64,000 nt of DNA from Janthinobacterium tructae (lineage in GTDB: Bacteria; Pseudomonadota; Gammaproteobacteria; Burkholderiales; Burkholderiaceae_D), in the NCBI RefSeq assembly GCF_006517255.1, contig NZ_CP041185.1, positions 1,550,001 to 1,614,000 of the forward strand, given 5' to 3'. Positions 42,409-64,000 of this stretch are shown here, one piece after another. The notes beneath the pieces are model-generated. The model was not told the origin of the DNA and searched no databases. It saw nothing but the letters and a program-made list of their open reading frames with translations. The position numbers and the translations under genes are program-made. Numbering within the stretch: the stretch's first letter is position 1; every line of letters begins with the position of its first letter.

Positions 42409-42700
42409 TGAATCTCCACCAGTAGCTTAGACTCTCTTGATCTATGGTTCTTGAAAGATAAAAGACCCATGGACTGTGTTGGACATGCGCGGTCCTGCCA
42501 AGCACCTGGTGTACGATTTCGCAACTGCCTGATACAACGACGAAATCGGGTCGGGCCTATCTATCCCCTGCCCTGCAGAGACTCCTGCCGTGCTCTAGCA
42601 AAAGCAGGCCTTCCCTAGCAATAACTGCCGGCGAAAGCTGGCATAGCTGAACGGGGCAACAGCAGAGCGCCTGCTTCTTAACGCAGTAAGGGCATAGTTA
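42409..42700 (+). repeat. TGAATCGCCAC repeat element, left part, inside the IS6 element
   Basis: Begins TGAATCTCCACCAGTAGC, one base different from the usual end, and carries TGATCTATGG...CCATGGAC, CGATTTCGCAACTG...ACGACGAAATCGGG and CCCTGCCCTGCAGAGAC. The second inverted pair has matching changes in both arms (GATTTCG / CGAAATC), keeping the hairpin. Right end missing. Plus orientation. Confidence 0.75.
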
Positions 42701-47867: not shown

Positions 47868-47869
47868 AA

Positions 47870-49501
47870 TTATTTCCCCTGTTTGATTCGTTCGGTAAGA
47901 TATTGGCGAACTTTATCATCCGCCAGTGCTGCAGCAGTTAGCAAGGCTTCAGATTTGCTAATTTTTCCCTCACCATCACCAAAATAGGAAGTTAATTTAA
48001 CAAGTGCAGGATTTGTAATTTCTCCCGACAAATCCACAACGTCGTATACCTTTTCCAATAAACTCTTTGGACCTAATCCAAAACCATTGATGGTTCTGGA
48101 TTTGTCGATATCGATCAGGGAATTGGGAGGAGTATCGGCAGCAATTATGAGTGAATGAGAAGACACAACAATGTGAGCACGAGCAGCCAAGCCGGGGAAC
48201 GCTTTAACCAGTCTCAATATCCTTCCGATGTATTCACGTTGCCACTTGGGATGAAGAAACATTTCTCCCTCATCGATGAGCAGAAAAAAAGGGGCGATCG
48301 ATTTCTTATTTATACTGAGCTCTTTCAACGCACCATGTAGTGCTGCACTAAATACTGCCAGCGCCGATTCTCCTGAACTCAGGTTTGCAATTGAGAACAC
48401 CGCTAACCCTAGCCTACTGCAACGCCCAAGTGCATCCCGATCCGGCAGAAATTTTTCAAGATTAGTTTCGAATATTCTTGGTGTTGCCTGAATCGCCCCG
48501 CGCTTGCGCGATGTCAGCCATTCAGTTAATGCCCGCATAGTTTTCAAGATTGGCTGCAATTTTGGGTAGTCCAGCTCCACCCTAGATTGAAACTGAAGCG
48601 TAATTTCGTTGAGGAGAAATTTCCTTCGCTGGAGCGACAATCTTCTTGCAGAGAATTCTTCAAAATTTTTGAATGCACGATCCAATTCCGTATGGATCAG
48701 TTCGAAGATAATCTTTGCCAAGTGATTTATCCAAGTATTCGGTAGCCGATTAGATTCTCCCCTTGACTCAGCAATACTGCAAAGTACTCGTAGCTCCAGC
48801 GTCTGGCTCCTAAGTGAGTTTCGACCGCTCTTCCACAACAAGTCCCTCAAAAACCTGCCAGCGTCAATCTTTGAGAAGACATCCGAAAGTCGCTCGCATA
48901 TTTCTTGGATTGACAGCAAGTTATGGGTGATGCCCATTTTTGCACGTCGAACAACGCTATCGGGAAGATCTCTTTGTAGCTCTAGCAAAGCCAACCCATC
49001 AAGCTGGTTGAGCTCACCATATCGGGGTGACACATCACGACATTCTTCAACAGAAAGCATTGCTGTTCGACGCGCAGATTCAAAAGGAGAACTTGTATAG
49101 AAGATCGAGTGCAACACTATTTGCGCGTCATCAACACGCGTCACAGCGGCTCCCACAATTTCATGGTCATTCACTCCTGGTGAGGCGTAGAAAAAAAGCT
49201 GTTTCCTATGAGAGTAAAGAACCGAGACTTCACCGGCACCGGTTTTACTTGCAAATCCGGCAGCAATACGAAGAAGAATATCTGTCTTTCCCGATCCATT
49301 CACTCCAAACAATGTATGAAAGGATGCGATACCCTGCTCCAAGCTACGAGGCATCTTTTGCCCATCCATAGAAGTGATGGTGATACGCTGATCTGACACT
49401 GAAACGTCATAGTCGTTGCTAAGAAAAATGGGCAGCGGGCCATTTTCGGAGGGGACGATTAGCAAATGAAGGACTGCTTGAGATGGAATTTTTTTCAGCA
49501 T
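47870..49501 (-). CDS. SMC/ABC-type ATPase of a Septu-like pair
   Basis: 543 residues. Walker A GVNGSGKT (66-73), ABC signature LSSGES (about 369-374), Walker B APFFLLIDEGE (about 398-408) and H-loop VVSSHS (about 445). The middle is helical, shorter than in true SMC proteins. This is the PtuA-type architecture; together with the HNH gene it looks like a type I Septu. A retron or OLD-type system is less likely because no reverse transcriptase or TOPRIM is present. Confidence 0.75.
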   Translation of the reverse strand: MLKKIPSQAVLHLLIVPSENGPLPIFLSNDYDVSVSDQRITITSMDGQKMPRSLEQGIASFHTLFGVNGSGKTDILLRIAAGFASKTGAGEVSVLYSHRKQLFFYASPGVNDHEIVGAAVTRVDDAQIVLHSIFYTSSPFESARRTAMLSVEECRDVSPRYGELNQLDGLALLELQRDLPDSVVRRAKMGITHNLLSIQEICERLSDVFSKIDAGRFLRDLLWKSGRNSLRSQTLELRVLCSIAESRGESNRLPNTWINHLAKIIFELIHTELDRAFKNFEEFSARRLSLQRRKFLLNEITLQFQSRVELDYPKLQPILKTMRALTEWLTSRKRGAIQATPRIFETNLEKFLPDRDALGRCSRLGLAVFSIANLSSGESALAVFSAALHGALKELSINKKSIAPFFLLIDEGEMFLHPKWQREYIGRILRLVKAFPGLAARAHIVVSSHSLIIAADTPPNSLIDIDKSRTINGFGLGPKSLLEKVYDVVDLSGEITNPALVKLTSYFGDGEGKISKSEALLTAAALADDKVRQYLTERIKQGK

Positions 49502-49663: not shown

Positions 49664-49849
49664 ATGGCACATCTGGCCGCCTCAACTTGGGAAAAATTGG
49701 ACCTGCACGTCCATACGGCAGCTTCAATTGCCCATAACGATTAAGGCCGCGACGACGAAACGTGGGAGCGATTTCTCAACGACTTGGAGAGAATTAATAC
49801 CGAATTCAAAGTCATTCTGAGCAATGACTATTTGCCACTATCCCTCTAA
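49664..49849 (+). pseudogene. Decayed N-terminus of a TrlF-type PHP/ATPase gene
   Basis: After TTGAGG the frame reads MAHLAASTWEKLDLHVHTAA, SIAHND, a TAA stop, then GRDDETWERFLNDLERINTE and FKVILSNDYLPLSL. The LDLHVHTAAS phrase is the metal-binding start of a PHP domain and DETWERFLxDLE..xxEFKVI matches TrlF-family ATPases. About 60 codons remain, with one internal stop. Confidence 0.65.
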
Positions 49850-49861
49850 CATGAAACAGAA

Positions 49862-50686
49862 ATGACTCATCCAGAACCAGTCCAAAAAGGTAACCCTCAT
49901 AAATTGTCGCTTGACCAGCACACATTCCCAACCAAGAGTATTATAAGATTTTCCGAGGGCGGTGGGGTTGAAGTCCACGAAAAACGAGTCGGCCGCACAT
50001 TACGCCGTCTTCCAAAAGACGTCTTGTTTTGTGCGAGACGCTTATGGGATCACAAGTCCGAAATCGGATACATGCGAGATATTGAAAATCCATTCCAGTC
50101 ATTGATCGACAACCTATTAGGAGGGAAACGGAACCTATCTGCAGACAACCATTCACTAATTACAGATTTTTATTTTCTTTGGAATCTTCGTCAAAGAGTC
50201 CGGATGGAAGAGCCAATACATTCACAACTTCCTGGTTGGACGCCAGAGAGAGTAATTAGGAAGAAAGACACTCAAGAAAAGTTGGAAGGAAAGGGCATTC
50301 TTTTTTGGGATGAAAACGGTGAGATCCCCAATCGAATACTCACTGGAACTAGCTTGCAAATGCAGTTGTGGGCCGAGCGCGAGCGGATGCCGGTTACCAG
50401 GTGGGGTGTCATAGAAACCCTGCCTGGACAGGGCGAGTTCCTAGTTCCCGATAACCTCTGTCAGCACACACTCATACCAATCTCTCCGAACGTCTGTCTT
50501 GCGGCTAACAATCCGGATCAATTTGTCGATATGTCGTTTGTAGCATGGTACAACGGTTTGGCGGTCGAAAACTCCGATAACTACTATTTCGCACGAAACA
50601 TAAAGGATTGCCCAATTTTGAAACATACGACTCTACGAACTGAACTTAAGGATGTAGGGCTGCTCAAATCTGCGCGAAGGGCTTAG
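49862..50686 (+). CDS. DUF4238-like hypothetical protein
   Basis: 274 residues, soluble. Visible: HKLSLDQHTFPTKSIIRFSE near the N-terminus, RLWDHKSEIGYMRDIENPFQ and LIPISPNVCLAANNPDQFVD near the C-terminus. The pattern (conserved start, helical middle, P-x-SP-x-x-C-L end) resembles DUF4238-type proteins that occur in defence islands. Role not known. It begins 12 bp after the TrlF fragment. Confidence 0.5.
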   Translation: MTHPEPVQKGNPHKLSLDQHTFPTKSIIRFSEGGGVEVHEKRVGRTLRRLPKDVLFCARRLWDHKSEIGYMRDIENPFQSLIDNLLGGKRNLSADNHSLITDFYFLWNLRQRVRMEEPIHSQLPGWTPERVIRKKDTQEKLEGKGILFWDENGEIPNRILTGTSLQMQLWAERERMPVTRWGVIETLPGQGEFLVPDNLCQHTLIPISPNVCLAANNPDQFVDMSFVAWYNGLAVENSDNYYFARNIKDCPILKHTTLRTELKDVGLLKSARRA

Positions 50687-50701
50687 AGGGTGTAGACAAA
50701 A

Positions 50702-50945
50702 TCAACGCTTAAAAGCGAGTCTGTTGAGTAGCATACGTGCTTCAGCCAACCACACCCAAGCTGCCGAAACAGTGAATTTGCGGTCGTGATGCGTCACTCT
50801 GCGGCACCAGCGTTCCATCCACGCGTGTGTCCGTTCGGCGACCCAACGCATGGGCAGGACCCTGAACCCGGCATGCGCAACCGCAGCATCTTCAGGGGGC
50901 GTCTTGGGTTCGTGCAGCGTTCGGTCGTCCCATTGGCTGGATGAC
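50702..50945 (-). pseudogene. IS5-family transposase C-terminal fragment
   Basis: GFRVLPMRWVAERTHAWMER, then WCRRVTHHDRKFTVSAAWVW and LAEARMLLNRLAFKR is the end of an IS5-group transposase (the RWV-ERT-AW-xR signature). Its 5' part is cut off by the repeat element beginning at 50946. Confidence 0.75.
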
Positions 50946-51230
50946 TGAATCGCCACCAGTAGCTTAGACTTTCCTGATCCATGGTTCTCGGACGATGAGA
51001 ATCACGGATCGTGTCCGAGGTCTGGGTTTCGTGCCAGGCACCAGGTGTGCGATCTCGTAGCTGCCTAATCCAACGACGAGATCGGGTCTGGCCAGTCTAT
51101 CTCCCCTGCCCTGCAGAGACTCCTGCAGCACTCAAGTAAAAGCTTGCCTGCCCTCGCCATAATGGACAACGAAGGATGTCATATCCAGCAGGGTGAGCAG
51201 ATTTGCTGCATCGGCCAGCTCCTCCTCTAA
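50946..51230 (+). repeat. TGAATCGCCAC repeat element, left part
   Basis: TGAATCGCCACCAGTAGC is an exact left end; it continues with GATCCATGGTTCTCGG, the GATCTCGTAGCTG...ACGACGAGATCGGG hairpin and CCTGCCCTGCAGAGACTCC. Right end not found. Plus orientation. Confidence 0.75.
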
Positions 51231-51278
51231 CCGAATAATGCGCTTTTGAGTGCGCCGTCACGACAATCTGACTGATCA

Positions 51279-51755
51279 TTACGCTTCGCTTCCAGGCGGA
51301 TTGACTGTTGGAGCGACGACTGTGAAGCCGTGATGTTCGAGAACAGCCCGGCACACGGCGAGGAAGGCTGGTACATCCAAGTCGTGTTTGGCATCGTTGA
51401 CGCGCCAGCCACAGATTTTGAAGTCAGCCGGGCCGAGGCCGTCGCCGACGTGGTCGACCGTTGGCAGCAGGGCGAAGTCGTGTTTGTAGGTCCGGCCGCC
51501 CTCTGCAGAGTCGGCGTTATCGTAGGTGCCTAATAACGTCCAGTCGAGCGGCTCGCCGCTATAGGCGTCACACCCACTGCTTGCCCCCACTGCCGCGTGA
51601 ATAGCGATCCGGTAAGCTTCGCCGATCGCAGTGGCATTGCCACGCTTGCGGTCGCGCTTTACATGGGCCTGCGCCTTGTGTACCAACCAGCGCTGGTAGG
51701 CCGTTGGTTCGACGACGCCGACAAGGAAGGTGGGAAGCGCGTATTTTCTTGGCAC
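51279..51755 (-). CDS. Small HNH-nuclease-like hypothetical protein
   Basis: 158 residues: MPRKYALPTFLVGVVEPTAY, CDAYSGEPLDWTLLGTYDNA, FALLPTVDHVGDGLGPADFK and ICGWRVNDAKHDL. The C-x-YSGEPLDW...PTVDH...CxWRxNxAK pattern is that of HNH-related small proteins, with H-bearing DH and an N-x-K end. Nuclease function not certain. Single gene next to a repeat copy. Confidence 0.6.
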   Translation of the reverse strand: MPRKYALPTFLVGVVEPTAYQRWLVHKAQAHVKRDRKRGNATAIGEAYRIAIHAAVGASSGCDAYSGEPLDWTLLGTYDNADSAEGGRTYKHDFALLPTVDHVGDGLGPADFKICGWRVNDAKHDLDVPAFLAVCRAVLEHHGFTVVAPTVNPPGSEA

Positions 51756-52011
51756 GGTATCTCCATCATGTTTCTTGAGGACATGATACCCGACTGCCCC
51801 GCATAAATATAATGCTGGTTCGGCAACACGGTCCTAAGGACTGCGCGACCTTGGCCCAGTCCGACTATGCACCAGACCGGATCTGCCATGCATCAAAAAA
51901 AATCCATTTTCGGAATCAAGGCTTACCTAAGGGCTCGATGGCACCTCGTCTGTCGGCGTGGGTAGCCGCAGAGCCATTGGGCAGCACACATTTCGGACCA
52001 GATTTAGGACA

Positions 52012-52779
52012 TCAGACCAACTTGAAACCACTCCAAGCCGCTGCCACGACGCCGACAACCGCGATAGCGACCCCAGCAGGGCGATTCCTTAGCCACGCAC
52101 GGGCAATCCACCTGACGGGATGGCGCTCGGCAAAACGCAGTTCGCCGTAAAGCTCTTTGAAATCCCGAACTTGTATACGCGCTGTGACTGCCATTTTCTC
52201 TGCGTCCGAGAGCGCCGCGCGCAGATAGCGAGGTAGATCATGCTCGGTGATTGTTTGAGCCCAGGTCGTCACTTCCTTGAGGTTGCCTGCAAGGATGGAA
52301 CGCGATACGCCAGCTGACTTGTCCTTGTCCGTAAAGTCAAATTCCAATCCAAACCTTTCATAGAATCGATTTCGTCGGATCCTGTTTTGCGGATCGCCAG
52401 CATCACCGGCCAATAGAGTCACTTCCCGCACGGGGGTATCAGGCCATTGTTTCGCCCATGCTACAATTTCATTCATCAAATAGGTCCCCAGCCGCCCTCC
52501 CCTCAACCGTGGCGGGTCTACTCTGACATATCCGCCTGTGCTCAGGCTCGAGGAGGTGATCGAAATACCGTCGAAGCCCTTGTCGTAAAAGCCCAAGAAT
52601 TCGCCATCCGGGATATCGGAAGCAGTTCCGGCGCTTAGATCCCAATAGAAAACGCTGATCTTGCCGCGATGGATTTCATTGGTGCGTGGATCCCGCTCCA
52701 GCTCCTCCTTCCTTTCGATAAGTATCCAGTCGACGCGCCCAGCATCTGTGGAGTCAGCGACGCGCTTGATCTCAAGCAT
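52012..52779 (-). CDS. GNAT-type acetyltransferase-like protein with C-terminal membrane anchor
   Basis: 255 residues from ATG 52779 (preceded by AGGAAG); the frame reaches a TTG at 52842 but the extra residues look non-coding. GNAT core: YVRVDPPRLRGGRLGTYLMN, NEIVAWAKQWPDTPVREVTL, NRFYERFGLEFDF. The end is a hydrophobic helix (GVAIAVVGVVAAAWSGFKLV), so the protein is probably tail-anchored, unusual for a GNAT. Lies 203 bp downstream of the 1251-residue gene on the same strand. Confidence 0.7.
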   Translation of the reverse strand: MLEIKRVADSTDAGRVDWILIERKEELERDPRTNEIHRGKISVFYWDLSAGTASDIPDGEFLGFYDKGFDGISITSSSLSTGGYVRVDPPRLRGGRLGTYLMNEIVAWAKQWPDTPVREVTLLAGDAGDPQNRIRRNRFYERFGLEFDFTDKDKSAGVSRSILAGNLKEVTTWAQTITEHDLPRYLRAALSDAEKMAVTARIQVRDFKELYGELRFAERHPVRWIARAWLRNRPAGVAIAVVGVVAAAWSGFKLV

Positions 52780-52981
52780 GCGGACATCAGGCTTCCTGCG
52801 AGTTTGTCCATGGCCCTGGGGCCGAAATGATGAAGTGATCAAGGTTATTCCAAATAGGTTGTTTCCATCAACGACCGACCGCTAAAAATCGATCCTCGCG
52901 GTCGTGAGATTCAGTTTCAGTTGAAAGTTGACGCGGCCAGCCGCCACAAAGCTTCATCGCAAGCGGCTGCCTGTATCGGCT

Positions 52982-55900
52982 TTACCTCTTCAACTTGCTC
53001 TTTTCCGCCTCGACGTCCGCTCGCTCCGCACTTCGAGTCCAATCCTCTGAGATTGCTATCAGCATCGCTGATGTTCGGCGGTACTTCAGCGTCGCGTCCG
53101 CCCATGCTTTGTAACGCGTCGCAAGTTGGTACTCCTGCTCTCCGCCCTCGTTGATGCCCTTACTATATGCGCCACGCTTATTAAAGCACTCGATCATCAG
53201 TCCACTTTCGATCTGCACAGACGCCTCCGCTTCGATCACTTTGCATACTGCTGAAGGAGGCCAGAAGTGTTCGTCGACGTCTTGAGGAGCATAAGCCAGA
53301 ACGAAACCAATCCGGTTATCCCCAATATCAACGAGATCCTTGGCTGCAGCCAGAACTCTTACAGTCTTCACCCAATCGGATAGCATATTCGCGTCGATCT
53401 TCCCGTCAAGCAAACCGGGCACAATCTTGAATTCCGAAAGCAAGTCGTACGATGTATTTGCCCGCGCCTTCGCCTCCTCAGTGAGAATTTGATCGGCGGG
53501 CGCGCTTTTGCCCCTGAAAACATGGGACAGCACATCGACGAACATCTCAGGGTCTGATGCCAACAAATCGTAGATGACCAATGGTTCTCGCTCTTGACGC
53601 AACAGTGGCAAGTAGGCGTATTCCGCATTGGCGATCTGCCTCTTTTCGACATCAGTGCGCGTTCGCAGTTCCTTCAATGCCAGTCCGATGTAATAGGGAA
53701 GCATGTTCCCCATGCGCTCGAATCCCTCGGCCGCCTGGCCAACACCCGAGGCAAGCATGTCCATCAGCAGGCCCGACGGTACGTCTTTACTTCTCCTCTG
53801 CATCCAGCCCAGTACTTCAATGTCCCGACCAACGCTTCGGTATTGGTCGATCGCAAACAGAAGATCGTCCACGGATCCTTCGATGGGCAACATGCTCAGG
53901 TGATGCCAATATTGTTCCCGCACCTCGCCGCCGAGGACTTCGACATAGGCCCAAGTCTCCCGAGTGCTTGGCCAACCTAGTAGGAGTTTGGCCTTTGCCG
54001 TGTTATCCGGGACTTGCGACAGAACACGATCCTGGAAGCGGTTCATCCATTGGTCGCCGAATCTGTTGAAACCATGTGTCGAGACGTAATATGAAAGGCT
54101 CGGTGGTGCGTTAGGGTCCAGAGCGCCCTCCATCAACTCGAACATTTGCTCGAGTGAACACGGAATCTGACCCAAGGTTTGGCCGAGAAGTTCCGGCAAT
54201 TTAACCATCTTCGAGAGCTTCAGAATGCCAGGCACGCCGTCTCGCCCAAGCACGCGCTGGAGGACGTCCTTGCGCAAGTTTTGTGAGTCGTCGAGCACTT
54301 CTGCACCCGGGATGTACTTGCCAACATGCGGCGTCCAGTCATCAAAAGCATGGCGGTCAGACACAAGAGGATCGGTAGGACGATGACGTTCGACCAGATC
54401 TTTCATAGCGGTAAGCTCCTCGCCTCTCAACGCCCAGTCAGAACCACCGAAGTATTCATTGCGCGTCGCCTCATCTTTGAGGGCATGCCAAATCGCATTG
54501 CCTTCAGCAACGCTGTGTGCAACGAGATAGATGTCGATGTGGGCGAGCACCTTCGCCCGATTTAACGGCTGTAATTTGCCGATCTTGTTGACAAAGGTTC
54601 CTAGACGGTCCTCGTCGTCGCCAGCTGCGCCAAGGGCTCGCTCGACGACCGCGGTTTCAAAGTCCCACACCAATCCGTAAGTAATCTCTTCGAGCTTTTC
54701 CGGCGCCAGGTCGCGTAGCTTTGGATGCTGGGTAGGAGTGGTCGAGTCCATACTTGAGGGTAGAAGCTTTTTTAGCAGTTGCCACCCGACCTCGGGACAT
54801 TCCGCCAAGACTGAATCAAGGCATGCGATGCGCTGAGGCTGCAATGCATATGTGTTGGGCGCCCACCCCAATAAAATGTCGCGCAGGCTGTTGATGGGTC
54901 GGTTGACGTGATTCGATTCCGGTTCCGGATCCAGTTGTCCAAGCTTGGCCAAGACCACTGCGGCACGGTTTAGATATCGGGGGTCCCAGGCTATAGTCTC
55001 CAACGCCCAAAGAAAACGTACATGTGGACTAGACGGGCCGAAAAAGTGCTTTTCCTCTGACTCAAAGATCTGTGCCAACTGCTCCGGGGCGCCCGCGAGC
55101 ATAGACTCGAGGGCCTGCAAAAAAGGGTTTGGGGCGGCCTCCGCGATCAACGCGGTCTGGTCGCCAAGGCATACTATCGAATGGTGCAGTCTCCCCCATT
55201 CGGGCAACGCATTAATCACATCGTCGACGTACCTCTGCGGCGACTTACCCTTGACGTACAGGTCTGCCACCTCATGCATTGACGCGATGATCAGCAGTGT
55301 CAACGCAAGACCATCGCGTAACCATTGACTATAGTCTGACGACGCAAGTCTAGCCTGATTGAATTTTTGCTCTCGAGACGGCTGTTCGGGCTGTGTGCCG
55401 AAGACCTTGATAATGGCATCGCGTAGCCGCGTCAGGTCGTCATCGGTAAGCTGCCGGCCGTAGAAATAGAAGGCGTCCACCGGAGCGCGTACCTGCCACA
55501 CCTCAGCCTCTCTGTCGACAGGGCGATCTGGCATGCCGAGCGTGGGCATTAGGATCCCCTCAAGCATGCCATAGGTGGCATAGCCGCCAAGCTCTTTGAG
55601 CACATCGCAGTCGGCGGGGACGTCGCTAGACCAACCACCGGCGAGAAGCGCTGGTTTAAGTGCAGTCGCATGCCCCACCCATACGGGATCGGCAACGGGC
55701 GCGTTTTTGATGAGGCGTTTCAGGATAGTCAGGCTGCGTCCACAGCGATGCGCCAGCTCGTAGCCCTGCCCATGATCAAGCCCCATATCGATGAAGCCGG
55801 GCACCATGCCTGAAGCCGTCGGCCGTTTTAGCACGGGGCCGCGTCTGGCCTGTGCGCCCGTTGCAGCGGACAAGGTGGGGCAATTCTTGGAGAGCATTCC

Positions 55901-56737
55901 TGCTAGTGATTCGGCAGTGCCCGTAGCGATGACGACCAAATTGGATTTCATCGCTAAGAAGCGGGCGGCGGCATCGGTGCGAACGATCAACGTCCTGGAC
56001 TCCAGCGATTCACGCACGCTAGGCTCCGCACGGCGGATCGCCGCAACCGCGAAAGCTATAACCTCCTCGGACGTCTCGGCGCCAAGCATGAAGGATTCGG
56101 GTTGCCCGAGAAGTTTGGCAATCAGCGCGTCGGCCTCCTGCTGTCTATCAGCGATGACAAGTTTCTCACTGAGCTGCGGCTTATACTGTGTACTGAATTC
56201 CTCCCAATACTCGTCGGTGCTCAAGGCATCGTGTTTCGGAGCTAACTTAAGGACATCGCGAGCGTAACGAGCAGCAATGGCCGGATGATCGTCGAGCCAG
56301 TGGACCAAAGACGAACCGTCAAGGTATCGGACATCCTTCCACTTCCCTTCGTTACGGCGCTCATCCTCCCATTCGGGGATCTTTTTAGCGGGCGTGTCCC
56401 AACATTCCAGATTGACTAGGACGAGCGTATTCTCGGCCATCTCGGCATCCGAGGTTTGGCCGGTCCGCTTGTTATAGTCGTTGTCGGCCTTCTTAGCACC
56501 AGGACCGGTACCAAATTCCCATTTGGACTTACCCTCTGGAACAAGGCCCTTCGCCATTTCCGTTTCCAGGTCGCCATCCCACCCGCGAACCTGACTGGCC
56601 TCGCCATTTGGGAAGCGAAATCGCGACGCATCGACGATCGTAGCGCGGATCAGGTCTGACACCATGGCCGGCAACTTCTCGCGAGCGTTCAGGAAGCTTG
56701 CCCAATTATCTAGGGCGATTGTGTCGATCCATTGCAT
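52982..56737 (-). CDS. Large (1251 aa) putative defence protein with nuclease-like N-terminus
   Basis: The first 170 residues contain RGWDGDLETEMAKGLVPEGK, SKWEFGTGPGAKKADNDYNK RTGQT and LVLVNLECWDTPAKKIPEWE, then KDVRYLDGSSLVHWLDDHPA. This is a compact alpha/beta unit with G-W-D-G, acidic and Lys residues, seen at the start of large defence-type proteins and probably of the PD-(D/E)XK class. Residues about 200-330 look like a degenerate NTPase-related region without P-loop (FMLGAETSEEVIAFAVAAIR). The rest, about 900 residues, is helical repeat material, suitable for sensing. No known named system was recognised. Confidence 0.6.
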   Translation of the reverse strand: MQWIDTIALDNWASFLNAREKLPAMVSDLIRATIVDASRFRFPNGEASQVRGWDGDLETEMAKGLVPEGKSKWEFGTGPGAKKADNDYNKRTGQTSDAEMAENTLVLVNLECWDTPAKKIPEWEDERRNEGKWKDVRYLDGSSLVHWLDDHPAIAARYARDVLKLAPKHDALSTDEYWEEFSTQYKPQLSEKLVIADRQQEADALIAKLLGQPESFMLGAETSEEVIAFAVAAIRRAEPSVRESLESRTLIVRTDAAARFLAMKSNLVVIATGTAESLAGMLSKNCPTLSAATGAQARRGPVLKRPTASGMVPGFIDMGLDHGQGYELAHRCGRSLTILKRLIKNAPVADPVWVGHATALKPALLAGGWSSDVPADCDVLKELGGYATYGMLEGILMPTLGMPDRPVDREAEVWQVRAPVDAFYFYGRQLTDDDLTRLRDAIIKVFGTQPEQPSREQKFNQARLASSDYSQWLRDGLALTLLIIASMHEVADLYVKGKSPQRYVDDVINALPEWGRLHHSIVCLGDQTALIAEAAPNPFLQALESMLAGAPEQLAQIFESEEKHFFGPSSPHVRFLWALETIAWDPRYLNRAAVVLAKLGQLDPEPESNHVNRPINSLRDILLGWAPNTYALQPQRIACLDSVLAECPEVGWQLLKKLLPSSMDSTTPTQHPKLRDLAPEKLEEITYGLVWDFETAVVERALGAAGDDEDRLGTFVNKIGKLQPLNRAKVLAHIDIYLVAHSVAEGNAIWHALKDEATRNEYFGGSDWALRGEELTAMKDLVERHRPTDPLVSDRHAFDDWTPHVGKYIPGAEVLDDSQNLRKDVLQRVLGRDGVPGILKLSKMVKLPELLGQTLGQIPCSLEQMFELMEGALDPNAPPSLSYYVSTHGFNRFGDQWMNRFQDRVLSQVPDNTAKAKLLLGWPSTRETWAYVEVLGGEVREQYWHHLSMLPIEGSVDDLLFAIDQYRSVGRDIEVLGWMQRRSKDVPSGLLMDMLASGVGQAAEGFERMGNMLPYYIGLALKELRTRTDVEKRQIANAEYAYLPLLRQEREPLVIYDLLASDPEMFVDVLSHVFRGKSAPADQILTEEAKARANTSYDLLSEFKIVPGLLDGKIDANMLSDWVKTVRVLAAAKDLVDIGDNRIGFVLAYAPQDVDEHFWPPSAVCKVIEAEASVQIESGLMIECFNKRGAYSKGINEGGEQEYQLATRYKAWADATLKYRRTSAMLIAISEDWTRSAERADVEAEKSKLKR

Positions 56738-56892
56738 GCCGCTCTCTCTCTTCTCTTATGGCGCGTAGCGCCTTCGATATTAATTGATTAACGCGCGTTG
56801 AGAACTCTGAATCCACCTCGATGCGTCAGCCACTTATTTGACCGCGCAATCGTACACCGTCGAGGTTCTCTGCAACAGAGTTTTCTATGACT

Positions 56893-57050
56893 TGAATCGC
56901 CATCTTTAGCTTAGGCCCTCTTGAGTCATAGTTTTAAAGCTATGAAAAACCGATCGATCGTGTTAGTGGCCAGTGTGTCCTTCCAATCTCGTAGCGGCCT
57001 GATTCAACGACAAGATCGGGTACGAGCCGTCTGTCCCCCGGTACGCCGTC
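56893..57050 (+). repeat. TGAATCGCCAC repeat element, diverged left part
   Basis: TGAATCGCCATCTTTAGC, then TTGAGTCATAG, CGATCGATCGTGTTAGTG, CAATCTCGTAGCGGCC and ACGACAAGATCGGG in the usual order. Plus orientation. It separates the 1251-residue gene from the caspase pair. Confidence 0.65.
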
Positions 57051-57309
57051 GCAATAAGAGCGTGATGTTGCAGTGAAACGGAAAACTACGGGGGGTTCCC
57101 AACTCTCTTTTCCAATTAGGGACGCCCACACAATACTGAAAAAATAATACGCTAAGGATTTCCGCCGGTCCGAAGCGGACGGAATTTTCGTTCTTCAAAG
57201 TTCCGACTCCGCTCCCAAACATAGTCACCGGTTACATTGATATGTTACCTGGGAACTATTCGTGTCAGCTTAGTGTTAAGCTATGACAATCAAAACTATA
57301 GGGGGAATT

Positions 57310-58011
57310 ATGAAACGTAGAGCACTGCTTATCGGAAATACCGGGGGACTTGATGGTATCGGCGTTGATATTAAACACACGGCTAGATTCTTGATGAGTA
57401 GCCGCGGTGGTCAGTGGTATTCGTCTGAGATAACAACACTAATGGACCCGTCTAAGAAGCTCGCTACTGAGACAATCGCCCGAATCCGCGCCGAGAAGCC
57501 CGATTACACGTTTTTCCTTTTCACCGGGCACGGAAGCCACTACGGCCAAACCGAACTCTGCGTGAACGACAAAGAAACGATTCTGGAATCAGATCTGAAC
57601 GGTATGGGTGATCGTCAGTTGAGCATATTTGACTGCTGCAGGGTTGAACGCCCACTTGTAAAGGCCACAAACGAATCGTACCGGTCTATCGCCATGGATT
57701 CCATGGATGCCACGCGAGATCGGTATGGCATGCGAATTATGCAGGCCGCGAAGTACCATGCAAAACTCTACGCATGCTCTGTTAATGAATTCTCTTATGA
57801 CACACCAGATGGAGCGATGTACCTTTCGAATCTTCTGCGCGCGGCGGCTTCTTTCCCGGTAGGTTACTCGACCGTGTCCGTTGAGGAAGCCCATGCAACT
57901 GCGCGAGAAAAGACGATCGCGGCCGCCGCTCGTGACGGTAAAAAACAGACGCCGGCCGCATCGCAGGCAAAACTGCCACGCGACATGCAACTGATTCTGT
58001 CTATTAAATGA
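57310..58011 (+). CDS. Caspase-like cysteine protease
   Basis: 233 residues from ATG 57310, which has GGGGGAATT before it; a 9-codon longer form is less likely. MKRRALLIGNTGGLDGIGVD opens the caspase fold, FFLFTGHGSH carries the catalytic His (His74) and LSIFDCCR the Cys (109/110). Residues LACS-like KLYACSVNEFSYD form the specificity loop. Prokaryotic caspase-like proteases (metacaspase/orthocaspase class) act in abortive-infection systems. The stop overlaps the next start as ATGA, so the two proteins are produced together. No other sensor is encoded in the pair. Confidence 0.85.
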   Translation: MKRRALLIGNTGGLDGIGVDIKHTARFLMSSRGGQWYSSEITTLMDPSKKLATETIARIRAEKPDYTFFLFTGHGSHYGQTELCVNDKETILESDLNGMGDRQLSIFDCCRVERPLVKATNESYRSIAMDSMDATRDRYGMRIMQAAKYHAKLYACSVNEFSYDTPDGAMYLSNLLRAAASFPVGYSTVSVEEAHATAREKTIAAAARDGKKQTPAASQAKLPRDMQLILSIK

Positions 58012-58907
58012 TTGCCGTTTCGGAGACGATTCCATTGCCTAATTCAAACTGCACCGCTGCGCTACCAGAGGCCCAAGTCACGGAGAAAAATTTACCCAAA
58101 CATTTTTCCCTTACGGCCGGGGCACACGATCCAGAATTAGGGAAGACAATCAAGGACATTGTTATGTGTTCTGAATTGTTCATAGTTTACGTGGATACCG
58201 AACTCAATATTCAGTGGTTCACACTGGATGCACATACCTCGCCAGACTACTGTGGTGACGTCCTCAATTTAGTGGCAAAACTTGAGGCCGAATCGAACTT
58301 CATTACCGACAAGCAGATGTTGTTCAATTACCGAAAAAGGATCGGTGAAGGCTTGGCGAGATGTCTTTCATGTTACCCAAAAGAAACTGCGCTCGCTGCA
58401 CTCAAGGAAGTCGCAGCTGAATTGAAGGCGCGAAACAAGGAGGTCTCTTGGGGTTGGTATTTCCAAGCGTCTTACTGGGTCACTCTTGTCTTGGCAATGG
58501 TTTTCGTCCTTTTTTGGTTTGCGCGCGACAGTCTTCGTGCAGCCATCACACCGATAGCTTTTGAGGTTGTCCTCGGCGCGATTTGCGGAACTTTCGGGTC
58601 GTTGTTTTCTGTAACGGCCCGGAGCAATCGCCTCACGTTTGACGCAAATGCAGGCAAAACACTTCACATGCTCGAAGGTTTAGCGCGAGTGGCCGCCGGC
58701 TTCATCGGAGCGTTGTTAATGGCTTTAGCAATCAAGGCTGGCCTAATCCTTGGGGGGACAACATTTTCGGGCAATCAACTAGCACTGCTGCTGTGCATTT
58801 GCATTGCAGCAGGTGCTAGCGAGCGTATTGTTCCATCGTTGATATCCTCCGTGGAGAAGGCAACTTCGCGTTCAGACGGCGAACGTAAAGAAGAAGACGG
58901 GAAATAA
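58008..58907 (+). CDS. Four-helix membrane protein partner of the caspase-like protease
   Basis: 299 residues. The N-terminal 160 residues are soluble (SELFIVYVDTELNIQWFTLD, CLSCYPKETALAALKEVAAE). Then four transmembrane helices: about 165-185 (YWVTLVLAMVFVLFWFA), 190-213 (FEVVLGAICGTFGSLFSV), 225-250 (RVAAGFIGALLMALAIKAGL) and 256-280 (LLLCICIAAGASERIVPSLI). GSLFSV...AGFIGAL...AGASERIVPSLI is a recurring motif of membrane effector domains in conflict systems. Suggested role: membrane effector cleaved or released by the protease. Function unproven. Confidence 0.75.
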   Translation: MIAVSETIPLPNSNCTAALPEAQVTEKNLPKHFSLTAGAHDPELGKTIKDIVMCSELFIVYVDTELNIQWFTLDAHTSPDYCGDVLNLVAKLEAESNFITDKQMLFNYRKRIGEGLARCLSCYPKETALAALKEVAAELKARNKEVSWGWYFQASYWVTLVLAMVFVLFWFARDSLRAAITPIAFEVVLGAICGTFGSLFSVTARSNRLTFDANAGKTLHMLEGLARVAAGFIGALLMALAIKAGLILGGTTFSGNQLALLLCICIAAGASERIVPSLISSVEKATSRSDGERKEEDGK

Positions 58908-58915
58908 ACCATCCT

Positions 58916-58983
58916 TTACCAGGGTGTTGAGCTAATCGCCGTGCCCGTTAAGCGGTACGGCGATTAGTTCAAGACCCTGGTAA
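58916..58983 (+). terminator. Large imperfect palindrome after the caspase operon
   Basis: TTACCAGGGT (58916-58925) pairs with ACCCTGGTAA (58974-58983), and AGCTAATCGCCGTGCC inside pairs with GGTACGGCGATTAGT. TATTTTT follows after five bases. A bidirectional terminator fits the position 9 bp after the stop; the length is more than a terminator needs. Confidence 0.55.
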
Positions 58984-59157
58984 CGTAGTATTTTTCAGTA
59001 ACGTAGCCAAGATCAGCCCTCCAATTACCACCGTGGCAAGCGGTCGCTGCACTTCGGCGTCAGCACCGTTAGCCAATGCCATCGGGACAGATCCATGCAA
59101 CGCGACCAATACAATCAAAAGTATTGGCCGAAGACGCCGCAAAACACCTGTTTGGCG
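58969..59157 (-). pseudogene. RND-family metal efflux transporter fragment (CzcA/CusA type)
   Basis: RRLRPILLIVLVALHGSVPM then ALANGADAEVQRPLATVVIG and GLILATLLKNTT matches the well-known 4th-repeat region (P-x-A-x-x-x-G-AEVQRPLATVVIGG) of heavy-metal RND pumps. It is cut at both sides, so only about 60 codons survive. Confidence 0.7.
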
Positions 59158-59208
59158 TCAGGTTACCTGCGAAACTGGTAGTTAGAAATAAAATTCTTTG
59201 CTTAGCAA

Positions 59209-59400
59209 TCAAATTCCAATAGTGTTCGCCCAATACAGTAAGTCGGCAAGCTTACTGTTCATCGCTGCGAAATACATATGATCTTCTCCGATTGGATTTA
59301 CCAAATTTAATCGATTCAGCTTCTGGAGGATCGCGAACTTTCTATTGTTTTCGGGATCAGGGGTGATGCTTTGATTCGGAGCTGGTGGTTGAGGCTCAAA
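59209..59400 (-). pseudogene. C-terminal fragment of an unrecognised gene
   Basis: FEPQPPAPNQSITPDPENNR, KFAILQKLNRLNLVNPIGED and HMYFAAMNSKLADLLYWANT, then a stop. The composition and the NPIGEDHMYFAAMN phrase look like a real protein end, but no start or upstream part remains. Confidence 0.45.
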
Positions 59401-59572
59401 CTAGGATCAAGCGGAAACTCATAGCTAGCCGTCTTAAACAGAGCCTTAATTTGTTTTAGATTTCGTAACTGGATGGGTGGCGCAACTTTACGCGATGATG
59501 TAAACGCCTTGACGTTTGTTTTGAAAATAGTCCGCTATTCCCACTCCCCTAGTGATTGGTCGATATGTGCAT

Positions 59573-59632
59573 AAATGCTCAGGAAAGTGGCGCTAACTAA
59601 ACGATTGGCTGTGTCTGGTTATGGGGAGGGAA
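59573..59632 (+). repeat. Solitary end of the 21463 IS3-family element
   Basis: GCTCAGGAAAGTGGCGCTAA and CTAAACGATTGGCTGTGTCT GG are the reverse complement of the left end of the IS at 21463 (from about 21474 to 21525). The rest of the IS is missing. Confidence 0.75.
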
Positions 59633-59654
59633 GGTCAAGGGTGATTAAACAGAT

Positions 59655-60404
59655 TCAAAATCCAGGCCATGAAATGGGGGCACTTGTACTGCCGATATTG
59701 GGAGTCGATTCCGCTGCGCTGTAGGAGCCAATACTTACAAATTGCAAATCAGCACACCAGCGACTACCCACTGGACCGAAAGGGCCCCATCCGTACCAAA
59801 AAGTGAAGATTAGCCACCTGTAGAAGTAGGCGGAAGCATAGCATGAATGTCTGACATTACTGACGATGAGGTTCCCGGTTTGAAGCTTGGCCTGCTCTGC
59901 CGCAGGTTTGAGTATCTCATCTTCGTTCACAGCAATGCAAACGTTTAGTGCGGTCTCGAAAATCTCTGTATTCATCACCGCTATAATGTCTGGAGGAACT
60001 TGTCGTCCCACCCCGGAAATTTTGCAGCCAAGAGTCTTTGCGAAGTATTTAAAAAGATTTACCTGTTCAATTCTCCAGTTATCTCCGTAGACGGATTCGA
60101 AATCGATTTGCCGTCGAATTAACAAATCAGCCTGGTGAGCATCCACATATTGAATAAATTTTTCGTATGCGCGATCAATCGGCTGTGTCTTGTGGTTATT
60201 GCACGGAGCGCAGAGGTTATTAGGCCATTTTACCAACTTCGAGTCCGGTCCTTGAAGGATGACGACAGTGTCATCACTACGAAGATAGTTAAGCGATGCC
60301 GACGTAAAGGAATCACCTCGGCCGTGTACTCGCACGAGGTCTGATTTCTTGATCTTGTGTTCGGCTGTTGTCGCGGGGTTTCCACATATCCAGCAAGCAC
60401 CCAT
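59655..60404 (-). CDS. HNH-family protein
   Basis: 249 residues. CWICGNPATTAEHKIKKSDL (Cys4-Cys7, EH) and NNLCAPCNNHKTQPIDRAYE make an HNH/zinc-finger nuclease head at residues 4-100. The remainder (DFESVYGDNWRIEQVNLFKY, HSCYASAYFYRWLIFTFWYG) is of unknown fold. Similar small HNH proteins occur singly in genomic islands. Surrounded by gene remnants. Confidence 0.7.
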   Translation of the reverse strand: MGACWICGNPATTAEHKIKKSDLVRVHGRGDSFTSASLNYLRSDDTVVILQGPDSKLVKWPNNLCAPCNNHKTQPIDRAYEKFIQYVDAHQADLLIRRQIDFESVYGDNWRIEQVNLFKYFAKTLGCKISGVGRQVPPDIIAVMNTEIFETALNVCIAVNEDEILKPAAEQAKLQTGNLIVSNVRHSCYASAYFYRWLIFTFWYGWGPFGPVGSRWCADLQFVSIGSYSAAESTPNIGSTSAPISWPGF

Positions 60405-60883
60405 TTCTAATCCAACGTAAATAAGATGTCATATCCAATAGGTATTTCAAAGAAATTTCACCTAATGTCGAGCTTTCGGTTCAAGCCTCGATGGTAGAAA
60501 GTAAGATCGATGTAATAACCTCCAACGCAAAACAAAGGCCTGCAAGGTTCTTGCCGGTCAAATTTATTTGACTGTACATGGCGCCGATATACCCGCGATG
60601 CTGGCAACTTACGAACGACCACTCTTGGTGATAATTCGGCTACTATGCGCGAAGCATTTATCAGTATCCCCTTATACCTGTTGGATAGTGCCTGATAGTT
60701 CACTATTGTACAAGAAATCTTCACAAAGACCCGTCGCTGAAGTACCTTCGCCTCTTCCACATGGAGCTACATGTGGAATGCTTTTTGGCTGAGACCTGCC
60801 CGATTGAATCGATACCTCATGTAACCGGTGATGTTGTCTTCATGGGAAGAAATCAATAATTACCTATCTGATAATTCACACCT
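60405..60883. other. Intergenic region, no gene recognised
   Basis: No supported coding frame on either strand. A hairpin CCACATGGAGCTACATGTGG lies at 60759-60778. The 5' side should hold the promoter for the HNH gene. Confidence 0.45.
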
Positions 60884-61028
60884 TCACAAGTCGGTTAGCG
60901 ATGCCATATTAATTTCATCCAGCGATTGTGCAGGGTCATCAATTAGCACGAAGGCACTTTCTGCACATATCCAATTTAGCGACAATAAGAATGATAGACT
61001 TAACGCAGAAAGCCGCCCAGAACTCATT
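60884..61028 (-). pseudogene. Fragment of an SMC/RecF-type ATPase
   Basis: MSSGRLSALSLSFLLSLNWI then CAESAFVLIDDPAQSLDEIN and a stop. The signature (S-G-x-x-x-ALSLSFLLSL) and Walker B with D-loop (VLIDDPAQSLDE) are those of ABC-type ATPases in DNA repair or defence. No Walker A part is left. Confidence 0.65.
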
Positions 61029-61072
61029 GCTCGTGTCCCATCAAGCGCAAGACCTATTAAACCAGGGATGAC

Positions 61073-61228
61073 GCCAAACAGGACATCTTCAACGACATCG
61101 AGATGTTCTACAATCCCAAGCGTCGTCACGGGTTTAATGACAGGCTTTCGCCAACAGAGATTAAGCGAAGGTACTTTGAACGGCTCGCGGGTGCCTATCA
61201 GACTAGTGGTGATTCAACTGTTAGTTAA
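61073..61228 (+). pseudogene. IS3-family transposase C-terminal fragment
   Basis: AKQDIFNDIEMFYNPKRRHG then FNDRLSPTEIKRRYFERLAG and a stop; typical end of IS3 orfB. It abuts the ATPase fragment. Confidence 0.75.
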
Positions 61229-61390
61229 ATTCTAGCAATCTCCCTGTATAATCCGACCACAACTTCGATTTGGCTGAAGAGAGACGTATTGCCCTGCGCC
61301 GCCGCGCTGGCGTAACTGCATCGTCCGCAAGAAGCCAAGTTCGCATAGACATCATTGTGCAAGCTAAATACCACGTTCAGAAGGCTAAGG

Positions 61391-62704
61391 ATGGGACAAG
61401 AATTTTTGCTGCAATTTCTTGAAGTCGGCGTCATCGACCTCGGTAGCGACGATAGCAAACTAGAAAAACTTCGAGAGACGGCTAAAGACCTGTCTGCAGC
61501 CCTACGGCAAGCTCCCCCGAAAACGTCGAGCTTCACGATGGCTGCAGCCGACCCAGTAATTGCATCGACCGATCCAACGATCGTCGAAGCCATGGAGGCT
61601 CTCAAGAAGCAGTGGCAGACGATTTCCAATACCCACCGTAGTCCGCCGGTCGCCATCCTTCGTGCCATCCTGCTCGACGCCATCATGCAGGCCGCGCGGG
61701 CGGATGATGCGATCGCCGTAGCGTTTGTCAATACTGCGCGTAATGCCCTCGCTCACGCCTCGGTCGCCGATGAAGCGGACATCTGGCGCACTGCTGTCAG
61801 CGAAATTGAAACTAAGGTAGATTCACGCGCTGAAGCCGAATGGGCAACGCCCGAGATGATTTCGGTCAAGCCGTTGAAATATGTCCCGCCGAATCCCAAG
61901 GGAGTGGACTACGAAGTAGCCAGTATTGATAAAGAAAAGCTGCAGGCGCACATTCTCTCCGCCTCTGGCCCTTGGGGCGGTGGGAAGCAAAACCGGTATT
62001 GGATACATAACAATCCTCAAGAATGGGGCCAAGACTTTGCAGGGCTGATGTCCGCGGCAATAGCTGAAGCAGTCGATGCTGTGACCTCCCAACTTAAACC
62101 GCCTTCAGTAGACATCAAGTCGCCCCTTTCGGCCCTGGCGAATGCGGTTTCTAGCCATGTTAGCGACGCGCTAGATGGCTTCAGTGGCGCGACCACGGGG
62201 CTGCAGCGCCGCACAAACCTCCTATGGTGGAAAGAGGCGATGTATTCCCCCAGCGCCCACGAGAGTTATCAGGACCTGCCGCTGTTTGAAGCAGCCGCTC
62301 TCATGGCGTTGGACCTGCACGAACAGGTGCCGACATATTCGCCAGCGAGTGTCTCAGCCCTGCTACGACAGACGATTCAGGCGCTTCCCGTAGGAGACGG
62401 CGGTCAGGACGCCAGCCCACGCGGATTTGCGAGCCTGGTACAAGGCGCAATCAGCTCCACACACATGGAACCATTCCGAGCGCTGGCAGCAGCGTATGCA
62501 CCTGCTCCCGAGGGCCGTGGACCTTTGCTGTCGCTCATTGGGAATCCTCGGGAAGCTAAAGCTATCGAGTCGGAAAACCTCCGCGATTATGTCGGCGTGG
62601 ACGCGTCAACGGTCATGAGCCCATCCGAGTGGGGCACGCACCTGTTCCGAGAGCTGCAGGCCGCGCGCGCCACCAGCCCAACCAATCGCGCCGCGAAGAA
62701 ATAG
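61391..62704 (+). CDS. All-helical GASH protein of a GTPase-associated conflict system
   Basis: 437 residues from ATG 61391 (AAGG nearby); the frame is open a bit upstream. MGQEFLLQFLEVGVIDLGSD, SKLEKLRETAKDLSAALRQA opens, and nearly all predicted structure is helical: LLWWKEAMYSPSAHESYQDL, FEAAALMALDLHEQVPTYSP. Matches the family named GTPase-associated system all-helical protein (GASH). It is encoded with two TRAFAC GTPases in NTP-dependent conflict systems described by comparative genomics. Next gene is 7 bp away. Confidence 0.75.
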   Translation: MGQEFLLQFLEVGVIDLGSDDSKLEKLRETAKDLSAALRQAPPKTSSFTMAAADPVIASTDPTIVEAMEALKKQWQTISNTHRSPPVAILRAILLDAIMQAARADDAIAVAFVNTARNALAHASVADEADIWRTAVSEIETKVDSRAEAEWATPEMISVKPLKYVPPNPKGVDYEVASIDKEKLQAHILSASGPWGGGKQNRYWIHNNPQEWGQDFAGLMSAAIAEAVDAVTSQLKPPSVDIKSPLSALANAVSSHVSDALDGFSGATTGLQRRTNLLWWKEAMYSPSAHESYQDLPLFEAAALMALDLHEQVPTYSPASVSALLRQTIQALPVGDGGQDASPRGFASLVQGAISSTHMEPFRALAAAYAPAPEGRGPLLSLIGNPREAKAIESENLRDYVGVDASTVMSPSEWGTHLFRELQAARATSPTNRAAKK

Positions 62705-62711
62705 GTGGCTC

Positions 62712-63662
62712 ATGGACGGCTGCCGACACCTGCATTGTTTTGCGGACGACAACATCACCTGCACGCTTGGCCACCTCAGGAAGGATCAGTGCCCTGAGTG
62801 GCAAGGCTCGAATGACGCTCCAGCTTCCGCCTTGCCGGAAGCTGGCCAAACGCTCCTTCCATGGAGTGGTTCGGCCATGGGGCCAAAAGACCTCAACTTT
62901 CTGAGCGGGGTTGGGAAGCCAATTACTGTTGCCATCGTCGGCCCGGAGAGTGCCGGCAAGACCACGATCTTGGGTGCGTTCTACCAGCTCCTTTGGCAAG
63001 GCAAACTGACCACCGACGCGCACAGCTTCAGCAATTCCTATACCCTTAATGGCTGGGAAGCCGTTGCGTCCGCACTGCGCTGGAAGCCAGATACCCCCCC
63101 AAGCTTCCCGCCACACACGCCCAGCAGCGAAGCGCGCGCACCCGGCATGCTGCATCTCGGTTTCCGTCTCGAGAATGGTTCTCTTCGCGATTTCATTTTC
63201 GCCGATGCCCCTGGCGAATGGTTCCAGAAATGGGCAATCGACGAGCGGGCCGCCGACGCCCAAGGCGCCGCCTGGATCGCGCGAAACGCTGACATCACCC
63301 TGCTGGTGGCCGACAGTGAAGCGCTCTCTGGCCCCAAGCTTGGCACCGCGCGCAACGACTTTCAATTGCTCGCGCAACGTGCGATCGCGAACGCCCATGG
63401 TCGCCCCATCGCGTTGGTTTGGACTAAGGGTGACCTTCCAGTCCCCCCCGTCTTGGAAGCTAAGATCCGCAGTATGTTAGCCTCGGTGTCGCCGGTGGTT
63501 CCAGAGTTCACTGTAAGCGTGCACGGGGCTGACGACGAAGCCGTTGTTGACGGCTTCCGCCAGCTGTTCGGGTGGATTCTTGAAGCGAAGCGGCCGGGCT
63601 TAAATTTGCCAGCGACCGACGCACCAGGGCACGACCCACTTTTCCGAATTGGCAGGAGATAG
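62712..63662 (+). CDS. TRAFAC GTPase of the GASH system (double-GTPase type 1)
   Basis: 316 residues. P-loop VGPESAGKTT (77-86), switch II-like IFADAPGEWF (about 157-166), and LVWTKGDLP as the base-specificity NKxD-type motif (about 235-243). The first 30 residues (CRHLHCFADDNITCTLGHLR, KDQCPEW) have four Cys/His clusters, a probable metal site. ATG 62712 has TAGGTGG before it. Acts with the GASH protein and the next GTPase. Confidence 0.78.
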   Translation: MDGCRHLHCFADDNITCTLGHLRKDQCPEWQGSNDAPASALPEAGQTLLPWSGSAMGPKDLNFLSGVGKPITVAIVGPESAGKTTILGAFYQLLWQGKLTTDAHSFSNSYTLNGWEAVASALRWKPDTPPSFPPHTPSSEARAPGMLHLGFRLENGSLRDFIFADAPGEWFQKWAIDERAADAQGAAWIARNADITLLVADSEALSGPKLGTARNDFQLLAQRAIANAHGRPIALVWTKGDLPVPPVLEAKIRSMLASVSPVVPEFTVSVHGADDEAVVDGFRQLFGWILEAKRPGLNLPATDAPGHDPLFRIGRR

Positions 63663-63665
63663 GCA

Positions 63666-64000
63666 TTGGGAGAACAACACACCATCTTGCTAGTCGGTGA
63701 ATCCGGCGTAGGTAAAACTCACTACGGCGCCCAGTTCTTGAAGCGCCTGTCGGTCCAGACCTGCGCTCTCAAGGCAGCCGTTGCTCCGTCGAACGTGACG
63801 CCATTTGCTACGGCGCTGAGTTGCTTGACCGAGGGACTGGCAACCCACCATACGCCAGCGGATTCTTACGTTGAGAGCGTATGGCCAATTCGTGATGATG
63901 CCGGCCGCGTCGCAGATCTGGTGTGGCCCGATTATGGTGGGGAACAAGTGCGCAATCTTGCCGTCCAGCGTCAAATTCCAGAGGCCTGGCGGGAACGCGT
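63666..64000 (+). CDS. Second GTPase of the GASH system, 3' truncated by window edge
   Basis: The frame from TTG 63666 is open through the end of the window (111 codons). LGEQHTILLVGESGVGKTHY has a clear P-loop (GESGVGKT) and DLVWPDYGGEQVRN a switch II-like DYGGEQ. It is 3 bp from the first GTPase stop, so translation should be coupled. Likely the second of the double-GTPase pair. Confidence 0.72.
   Translation, partial: MGEQHTILLVGESGVGKTHYGAQFLKRLSVQTCALKAAVAPSNVTPFATALSCLTEGLATHHTPADSYVESVWPIRDDAGRVADLVWPDYGGEQVRNLAVQRQIPEAWRER

Follow-up and report, generated by a model that had tools for sequence, protein, structure and literature searches.

A caspase-like protease gene and a gene for a four-helix membrane protein form a pair in the Janthinobacterium tructae genome that is real, conserved, inherited together and horizontally scattered. 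All the intact close relatives that were compared have the same pairing, and so the two proteins probably work together. As judged from sequence, the pair would most likely serve as an infection-triggered self-killing (abortive infection) switch, and it would extend the known conflict systems that join a caspase to a partner, its own function being putative. We tentatively regard it, with somewhat less than even confidence, as a mobile two-gene caspase-membrane conflict module in which a caspase-gated membrane bundle would be the effector.

The window analysed is a stretch of 64,000 nt, positions 1550001-1614000 of a 6.31 Mb genome in one contig, and the coordinates of the features are given in Table 1. 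A sequence-only reading had described a caspase-like protease with an intact His/Cys dyad, whose gene overlaps by ATGA the gene of a membrane protein with a soluble N-terminal domain and four helices ending in an ASER motif. It had placed the pair alone between a repeat copy and a terminator-like palindrome in a defence island. The dyad, the overlap, the topology, the motif and the island setting all held up, as shown in Table 1 and below. The degraded repeat copy and the inverted repeat were also found at the two sides of the pair; however, the pair is not quite alone, because a weak HNH-like ORF and the GASH/DO-GTPase system precede the next repeat copy (68623). The HNH match of this ORF, which lies 3' of the pair, is below the cut-off. 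A second caspase, of the EAD1 type, lies about 9 kb downstream of the pair, beyond the window end. The 46 nt of 59577-59622 occur again, inverted and without mismatch, at the end of an rve-transposase gene (21473-21518), and are possibly the remnant of an insertion-sequence end.

The caspase ORF has a further in-frame ATG upstream, at 57283. Most of the 32 aligned caspases start with MKR, and GGGGG stands at 57301-57305, directly 5' of the caspase start at 57310. In the inverted repeat 3' of the pair, the T run begins about 8 bases past the stem, and therefore the repeat was absent from the output of the terminator scan. A genome search found no second copy of it in its own genome. An integron attC site was considered and rejected, the expected core motifs being missing by eye. 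No Rfam family matched the window at gathering thresholds, and neither the window nor the surrounding 51 kb contained a tRNA attachment site.

Table 1. Coordinates of the features of the window and of the compared loci (positions without a locus label are those of the window)
Feature	Position	Strand	Description
Zorya ZorC/ZorD	23415-28853		PADLOC
Dsr1	35249-39079		PADLOC
PDC-M62/Septu-like genes	46890-49501		PADLOC
Copies of the ~144-nt direct repeat, window	18464-18584, 20360-20502, 21107-21250, 34810-34950, 42440-42582, 50977-51120, 56927-57050
Copies of the ~144-nt direct repeat, L033	4623-4767, 6793-6936, 9680-9825
Degraded copy of the ~144-nt direct repeat	56927-57050	+	5' of the pair
Single-domain caspase (C14)	57310-58011	+	233 aa; PF00656 match
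ATGA stop/start overlap, caspase to membrane gene	58008-58011	+
Four-helix membrane protein	58008-58907	+	299 aa; hydropathy, structure model
Membrane protein segments (residues)	1-29; 30-148; 270-276		variable tail; soluble N-domain; ASERxVP motif (the protein also has four TM helices and a variable C-tail)
Inverted repeat, terminator-like	58916-58983		30-nt arms, 90% complementary, 8 nt between; 3' of the pair
GASH / DO-GTPase2 / DO-GTPase1 / GAP1-N1-EAD1 / EAD1-caspase	61355-63662 and L033:50-4165		runs past the window end
Caspase-membrane pair, phage contig	L017:3198-4747
Broken membrane gene	L057:1498-2460	-	one stop codon
Weak membrane-domain relative	L008:1468-2241	-	E about 1e-13
Weak membrane-domain relative	L059:1024-1839	+	E about 1e-13
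Weak membrane-domain relative	L020:1489-2850	-	E 4.6e-4
Caspase and one-helix pairs	L018:5546-6723; L019:1264-2426; L027 upstream of 4001

The caspase belongs to family C14 by its Pfam score (PF00656, E 7.9e-10, 39.2 bits against a gathering cut-off of 21.4, the match spanning residues 2-226), its His/Cys dyad and its caspase fold. H74, C110, D20 and D108 were kept in 32/32 sequences of the caspase alignment A2, which holds the window caspase and 31 of the 87 caspases found, the other 56 being left out. D20 and D108 point to Arg/Lys as the probable P1 specificity. Over the 18 pairs described below, the mean pairwise identity was 54% for the whole caspase and 59% for its core (1-112). The linker (113-131) was 28% identical, with no aligned basic residue kept throughout, and therefore autoprocessing at a conserved linker site is unsupported. 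NCBI lists some of the caspases as 'caspase family protein' and, among the partners, some as 'hypothetical protein'.

The membrane protein gave four hydropathy peaks (154-172, 178-196, 230-248 and 258-276); at the same threshold, three peaks were counted in L006 and L017, and five in L004. In the AlphaFold model (mean pLDDT 84, pTM 0.67), strands at 46-72 and then helices make up the N-domain, and a long helix runs into TM1, followed by three more TM helices. The distribution of basic residues speaks for a cytosolic location of both termini and of the TM2-TM3 loop. As seen in an alignment of 35 membrane-protein sequences (A1), S271, E272, R273 and P276 of the ASER..P motif were invariant in 35/35, and the invariant charges near the membrane boundary were R173, R205, E223, R227, E272 and R273. 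The mean pairwise identity by segment (18 pairs) was 71% for the TM2-TM3 loop, 71% for TM3, 69% for TM4, 66% for TM2, 65% for the ASER helix, 61% for the N-domain, 50% for TM1 and 40% for the TM1-TM2 loop. The TM bundle overall reached 63%, against 19% and 15% for the disordered tails. Taken as a whole, the bundle is conserved no less than the protease. Searches with the membrane protein in Pfam and PADLOC (each to E<=1) and in NCBIfam (to E<=0.1) gave nothing, and a comparison with the PDB gave no clear match to a solved fold and no fold match showing a channel.

A caspase of the same family adjoins the membrane gene in 8/8 intact strong loci (the window, L002-L006, L017 and L058), where strong means a membrane-profile match of E <1e-40 or, for L017, a tblastn match of E 3e-86. 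The co-occurrence elsewhere for which the sequence-only reading had proposed to look was thus observed. Five of these loci (L002-L006) came from a profile search of genome contigs with A1, and in 5/5 the gene directly before the membrane gene encodes an A2-family caspase. The ATGA overlap was kept in 6/7 caspase-first loci (the window, L002, L003, L005, L006 and L017), a count that takes an internal ATG as the start in L003, L005, L006 and L017; in L004, a 12-nt gap separates the two genes. In L058 the order is reversed, the caspase following the membrane gene at a distance of 6 nt; this arrangement speaks for functional linkage and not a frozen segment. Directly upstream of the L058 membrane gene, a recombinase/integrase-like ORF was seen by eye. 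In one more strong match, L057, which like L058 came from the search of 368 genomes of the family, the membrane gene is broken, and no caspase was found within the 3.8 kb stretch examined.

The distances among the caspases and those among the membrane proteins were correlated, with r = 0.94 over 18 pairs (7 loci and 11 pairs from the protein collection) and 0/10,000 permutations as high, a value to which common descent of the hosts contributes. In the protein collection, 11/60 membrane relatives matched a caspase relative exactly in longest-contig size, counted by eye, which suggests that these 11 and their caspases are on the same contig. The other 49/60 were without a caspase by that test, which may only reflect the listing of each cluster's longest contig.

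The unit is rare, scattered and mobile. In the genome profile searches, whose first pass was loose and may miss relatives, two of the 369 genomes of the class matched the membrane profile, namely the own genome and, weakly, L008. Eight of them matched the caspase profile, strongly in the own genome only and at E 2.7e-8 or weaker in the others. Among the 399 genomes of the order, the membrane profile found its own genome and the weak L020, the own genome giving the only strong match, and the caspase profile found its own genome only at E<=1e-10. The 40 genomes of the genus gave the own genome and one match of E 1.1e-4 (L032), which did not reach the E 0.01 threshold against the A1 profile; the 368 genomes of the family gave four matches at E<=1e-10, including the weak L059 and the broken L057. 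No membrane-protein match was found in plasmids, where caspase matches were found only in 5 Leptospira plasmids (30-31% identity), and no caspase match was found in phage records. In the viral contigs, single-sequence searches with the membrane protein or the caspase found nothing, and profile searches led to L017-L019 and to more stretches of these three contigs. The pair in the phage contig L017 lies between the terminase large subunit and portal genes and is cargo in a phage late operon.

The setting of the pair in the window is a defence island, in which PADLOC matched Zorya, Dsr1 and PDC-M62/Septu-like genes. Beside ZorC/ZorD there are an OmpA/MotB-like gene and a gene just under the MotA/ExbB cut-off (Pfam), and the island further holds an FRG-domain gene and an N6 methylase. 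Also within the island, and divergent from the pair, 52982-56737 (-) encodes a 1251-aa protein, which was likewise unmatched in Pfam and PADLOC (each to E<=1) and in NCBIfam (to E<=0.1). Ten same-strand copies of the direct repeat occur between window coordinates 18464 and 73825. They part unrelated blocks, namely an amylase, Zorya, Dsr1, the methylase with the Septu-like genes, a GNAT-like gene with the 1251-aa protein, and the caspase-membrane pair with the GAP1 system. The repeat was found in 21/40 genomes of the genus, its own included (E<=0.001), and two Janthinobacterium lividum plasmids carry it at 23 and 22 places, respectively; on one inspected J. lividum plasmid, it again stands between gene blocks. 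A match was found on the J. lividum plasmid NZ_CP139977.1. The array looks like a cassette-type one, and a literature search found no description of the repeat.

The neighbours of the pair were compared as non-overlapping ORFs of at least 90 aa in L002-L006, the L006 stretch being only 4 kb, and in the window from 49801 to 64000. Only the caspase and the membrane protein matched across all six. Since no third gene common to all the compared loci was found, the earlier description of the unit as self-contained is supported. The GASH and DO-GTPase2 genes matched between the window and L002 alone. That the pair belongs to a larger system together with the EAD1-caspase/GAP1/DO-GTPase genes near it is highly improbable. 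Genes for GASH, DO-GTPase2, DO-GTPase1, GAP1-N1-EAD1 and the EAD1-caspase do lie near the pair in both the window and L002; however, the set has the opposite orientation relative to the pair in L002 compared with the window, a transposase-like gene (L002) or the weakly HNH-like gene (window) intervenes, and L003-L005 gave no blastp match to the set within 8 kb on each side.

Among the ORFs scanned, recognised conflict neighbours of the four-helix pairing were found in the window and L002 (GAP1 system) only. L005 has an integrase near the pair and a group II intron, and L006 has a transposase beside the pair. The pair is surrounded by signalling genes in L003 and by aminotransferase and transporter genes in L004. 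Such two-component, GGDEF/EAL, aminotransferase and transporter surroundings would suit a regulated proteolysis or signalling unit that has no phage-defence role and travels as cargo on mobile DNA. The distant relatives L008, L059 and L020 would suit it as well, since no caspase was found in the stretches examined (for L020 by ORF list only). Nevertheless, the scattered distribution, the copy in a phage late operon and the defence island fit conflict better, and we consider such a signalling unit unlikely. The motif AGFSERFVP occurs in L059 and L020, two four-helix relatives, and the wider four-helix family may be a general uncharacterised membrane domain.

For the conflict module, we speculate that the quiescent caspase would be held near the membrane via the cytosolic N-domain of its partner. 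An infection signal would activate the caspase, and the activated caspase would cut the partner, with Arg/Lys as the probable P1 residue. The freed four-helix bundle would then perturb the inner membrane, and growth would stop before phage release. Position 125, which is K/R in 17/18 pairs and lies in the loop between the N-domain and the helix into TM1, is a possible cut site; K125 is missing or shifted in some distant membrane-protein relatives of A1. No conserved basic residue was found in any disordered, plainly cleavable segment, which speaks against this model.

The best reading of the membrane bundle is that of a functional partner, either substrate or effector, and not an anchor. The TM2-TM3 loop and TM3 are its most conserved parts, which is unlike a mere anchor, and the conservation of the bundle favours a gated effector over a membrane sensor with a killing caspase. 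However, TM1 and the TM1-TM2 loop are less conserved than the caspase. Distant membrane-domain relatives occur without a caspase, L003 and L004 lie among ordinary genes, and no PDB channel fold was matched; these observations also count against a gated effector.

In three other loci (L018, L019 and L027), a related caspase adjoins a different, one-helix membrane protein. The L018 and L019 caspases are 35-36% identical to the window caspase. Their upstream partners, of 149 and 142 aa with one N-terminal hydrophobic segment by eye, are 40% identical to each other and have QYPYLE in common, and both loci are on viral contigs, at most about 2 kb from an integrase gene. The L027 caspase, on a Leptospira mayottensis plasmid, matched at 30.9% identity over 76% of the query. 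By eye, the ORF before this caspase also has QYPYLE, and a helicase gene comes after the caspase. These pairs, which lie on prophage-like contigs or a plasmid, resemble the four-helix pairs in that a related caspase adjoins a membrane protein; they differ in their small upstream partner with one hydrophobic segment, which we do not claim to be akin to the four-helix protein. About 4 kb away on the Leptospira plasmid is a gene annotated as Shedu nuclease. At L018:7483-8614, near the prophage caspase, a SocA/Panacea-domain gene overlaps an ORF that, by eye, may encode a multi-helix membrane protein.

In a caspase tree of 95 rows, which leaves out two caspases of <200 aa, the 18 caspases known to be four-helix-paired fell on one side of a branch with support 98/79, just below the tool's star, and the three one-helix-paired caspases fell on the other. 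Since 74/95 rows lack a known partner and long branches meet, the tree is not proof of one origin.

The one-helix partners bear on another explanation, which is possible though somewhat unlikely. The membrane protein would be a sensor or holdfast that keeps the caspase inactive and releases it upon phage membrane disturbance, and the caspase would kill by cutting many host or phage proteins. That caspases of the same family stand elsewhere with a one-helix QYPYLE protein (L018 and L019 aligned, L027 by eye) favours such a sensor. A one-helix partner is no obvious pore, which suits a tether or sensor role better, and the common property of the four-helix and one-helix partners would be membrane tethering. 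A comparable proposal was made by Kaur et al. 2020 (PMC7159879) for the TM helix of EACC1, which would sense and activate its caspase. Nevertheless, conservation exceeds that of the protease over most of the bundle, and most clearly in the TM2-TM3 loop and TM3; a tether would not need so much, although a sensor could.

Caspase control of membrane integrity in bacteria is known through gasdermins, which are soluble, beta-rich pore formers. The sequence-only reading had noted that gasdermin is absent, and this agrees with the predicted fold of the partner, mainly helical with four TM helices; a bacterial gasdermin system was therefore rejected. Bacterial gasdermin-protease systems are named in PMC12799240. 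Their likeness to the present pair, a caspase-like protease beside a membrane-acting protein, provides a working analogy, whereas the four-helix partner is predicted to be a constitutive membrane protein.

Caspase pairs with EACC1, EACC2 or nucleases are described in PMC7159879, PMC8195603 (Kaur et al. 2021) and PMC12799240. In EACC1-caspase systems, as PMC7159879 presents them, a 5' partner with one TM helix is followed by a 3' caspase with C-terminal effector domains. These systems resemble the present pair in having two genes, for a membrane protein and a caspase, and a proposed conflict role. In contrast to EACC1 so described, the Janthinobacterium partner is 3', has four TM segments and has no Pfam match, and the window caspase is single-domain. 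Moreover, the window caspase scored 22.4 bits against the EACC1-associated caspase model NF047832, whose cut-off is 140. An EACC1-caspase identity was rejected on this score, on the partner topology and on the lack of a fused effector. In Canu, according to PMC12799240, the partner is a gated nuclease and the caspase carries an Ig-like domain; the likeness lies in a caspase encoded beside its target and in a MALT1-like caspase fold. Identity with Canu was rejected, since the present partner has no Pfam match (E<=1) and is predicted to be membrane-embedded, and its single-domain caspase has no Ig-like domain.

No CD-NTase cyclase (CBASS) was named among the scanned window ORFs, which are a subset of the ORFs of the window. 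In PADLOC-DB 2.0.0, no system was matched by both genes, and the caspase gave a weak match to the generic 'caspase' model (E 5.8e-4, 17.2 bits). The earlier statement that the pair matches no named system thus stands, the partner being unmatched in the three profile collections and the caspase matches to system models being weak or below cut-off. In the openly licensed papers searched, most subscription journals and preprints being outside that scope, no description or experimental test of the pair was found, and it is apparently undescribed.

With appreciable doubt, the four-helix protein could be a caspase-gated effector unrelated to gasdermins, unlocked by the cutting of its cytosolic domain, within a wider undescribed arrangement in bacteria, in which a single caspase lineage is combined with membrane partners of exchangeable type (four-helix or one-helix). 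With two genes in 1.6 kb, a direct test in a laboratory strain is feasible, and the alternative one-helix partner provides a natural comparison between sensing and killing as the role of the partner. If a second membrane protein, unrelated to gasdermins, were indeed tied to a caspase by the conserved pairing of their genes, bacteria would have more than one route to protease-triggered membrane killing.
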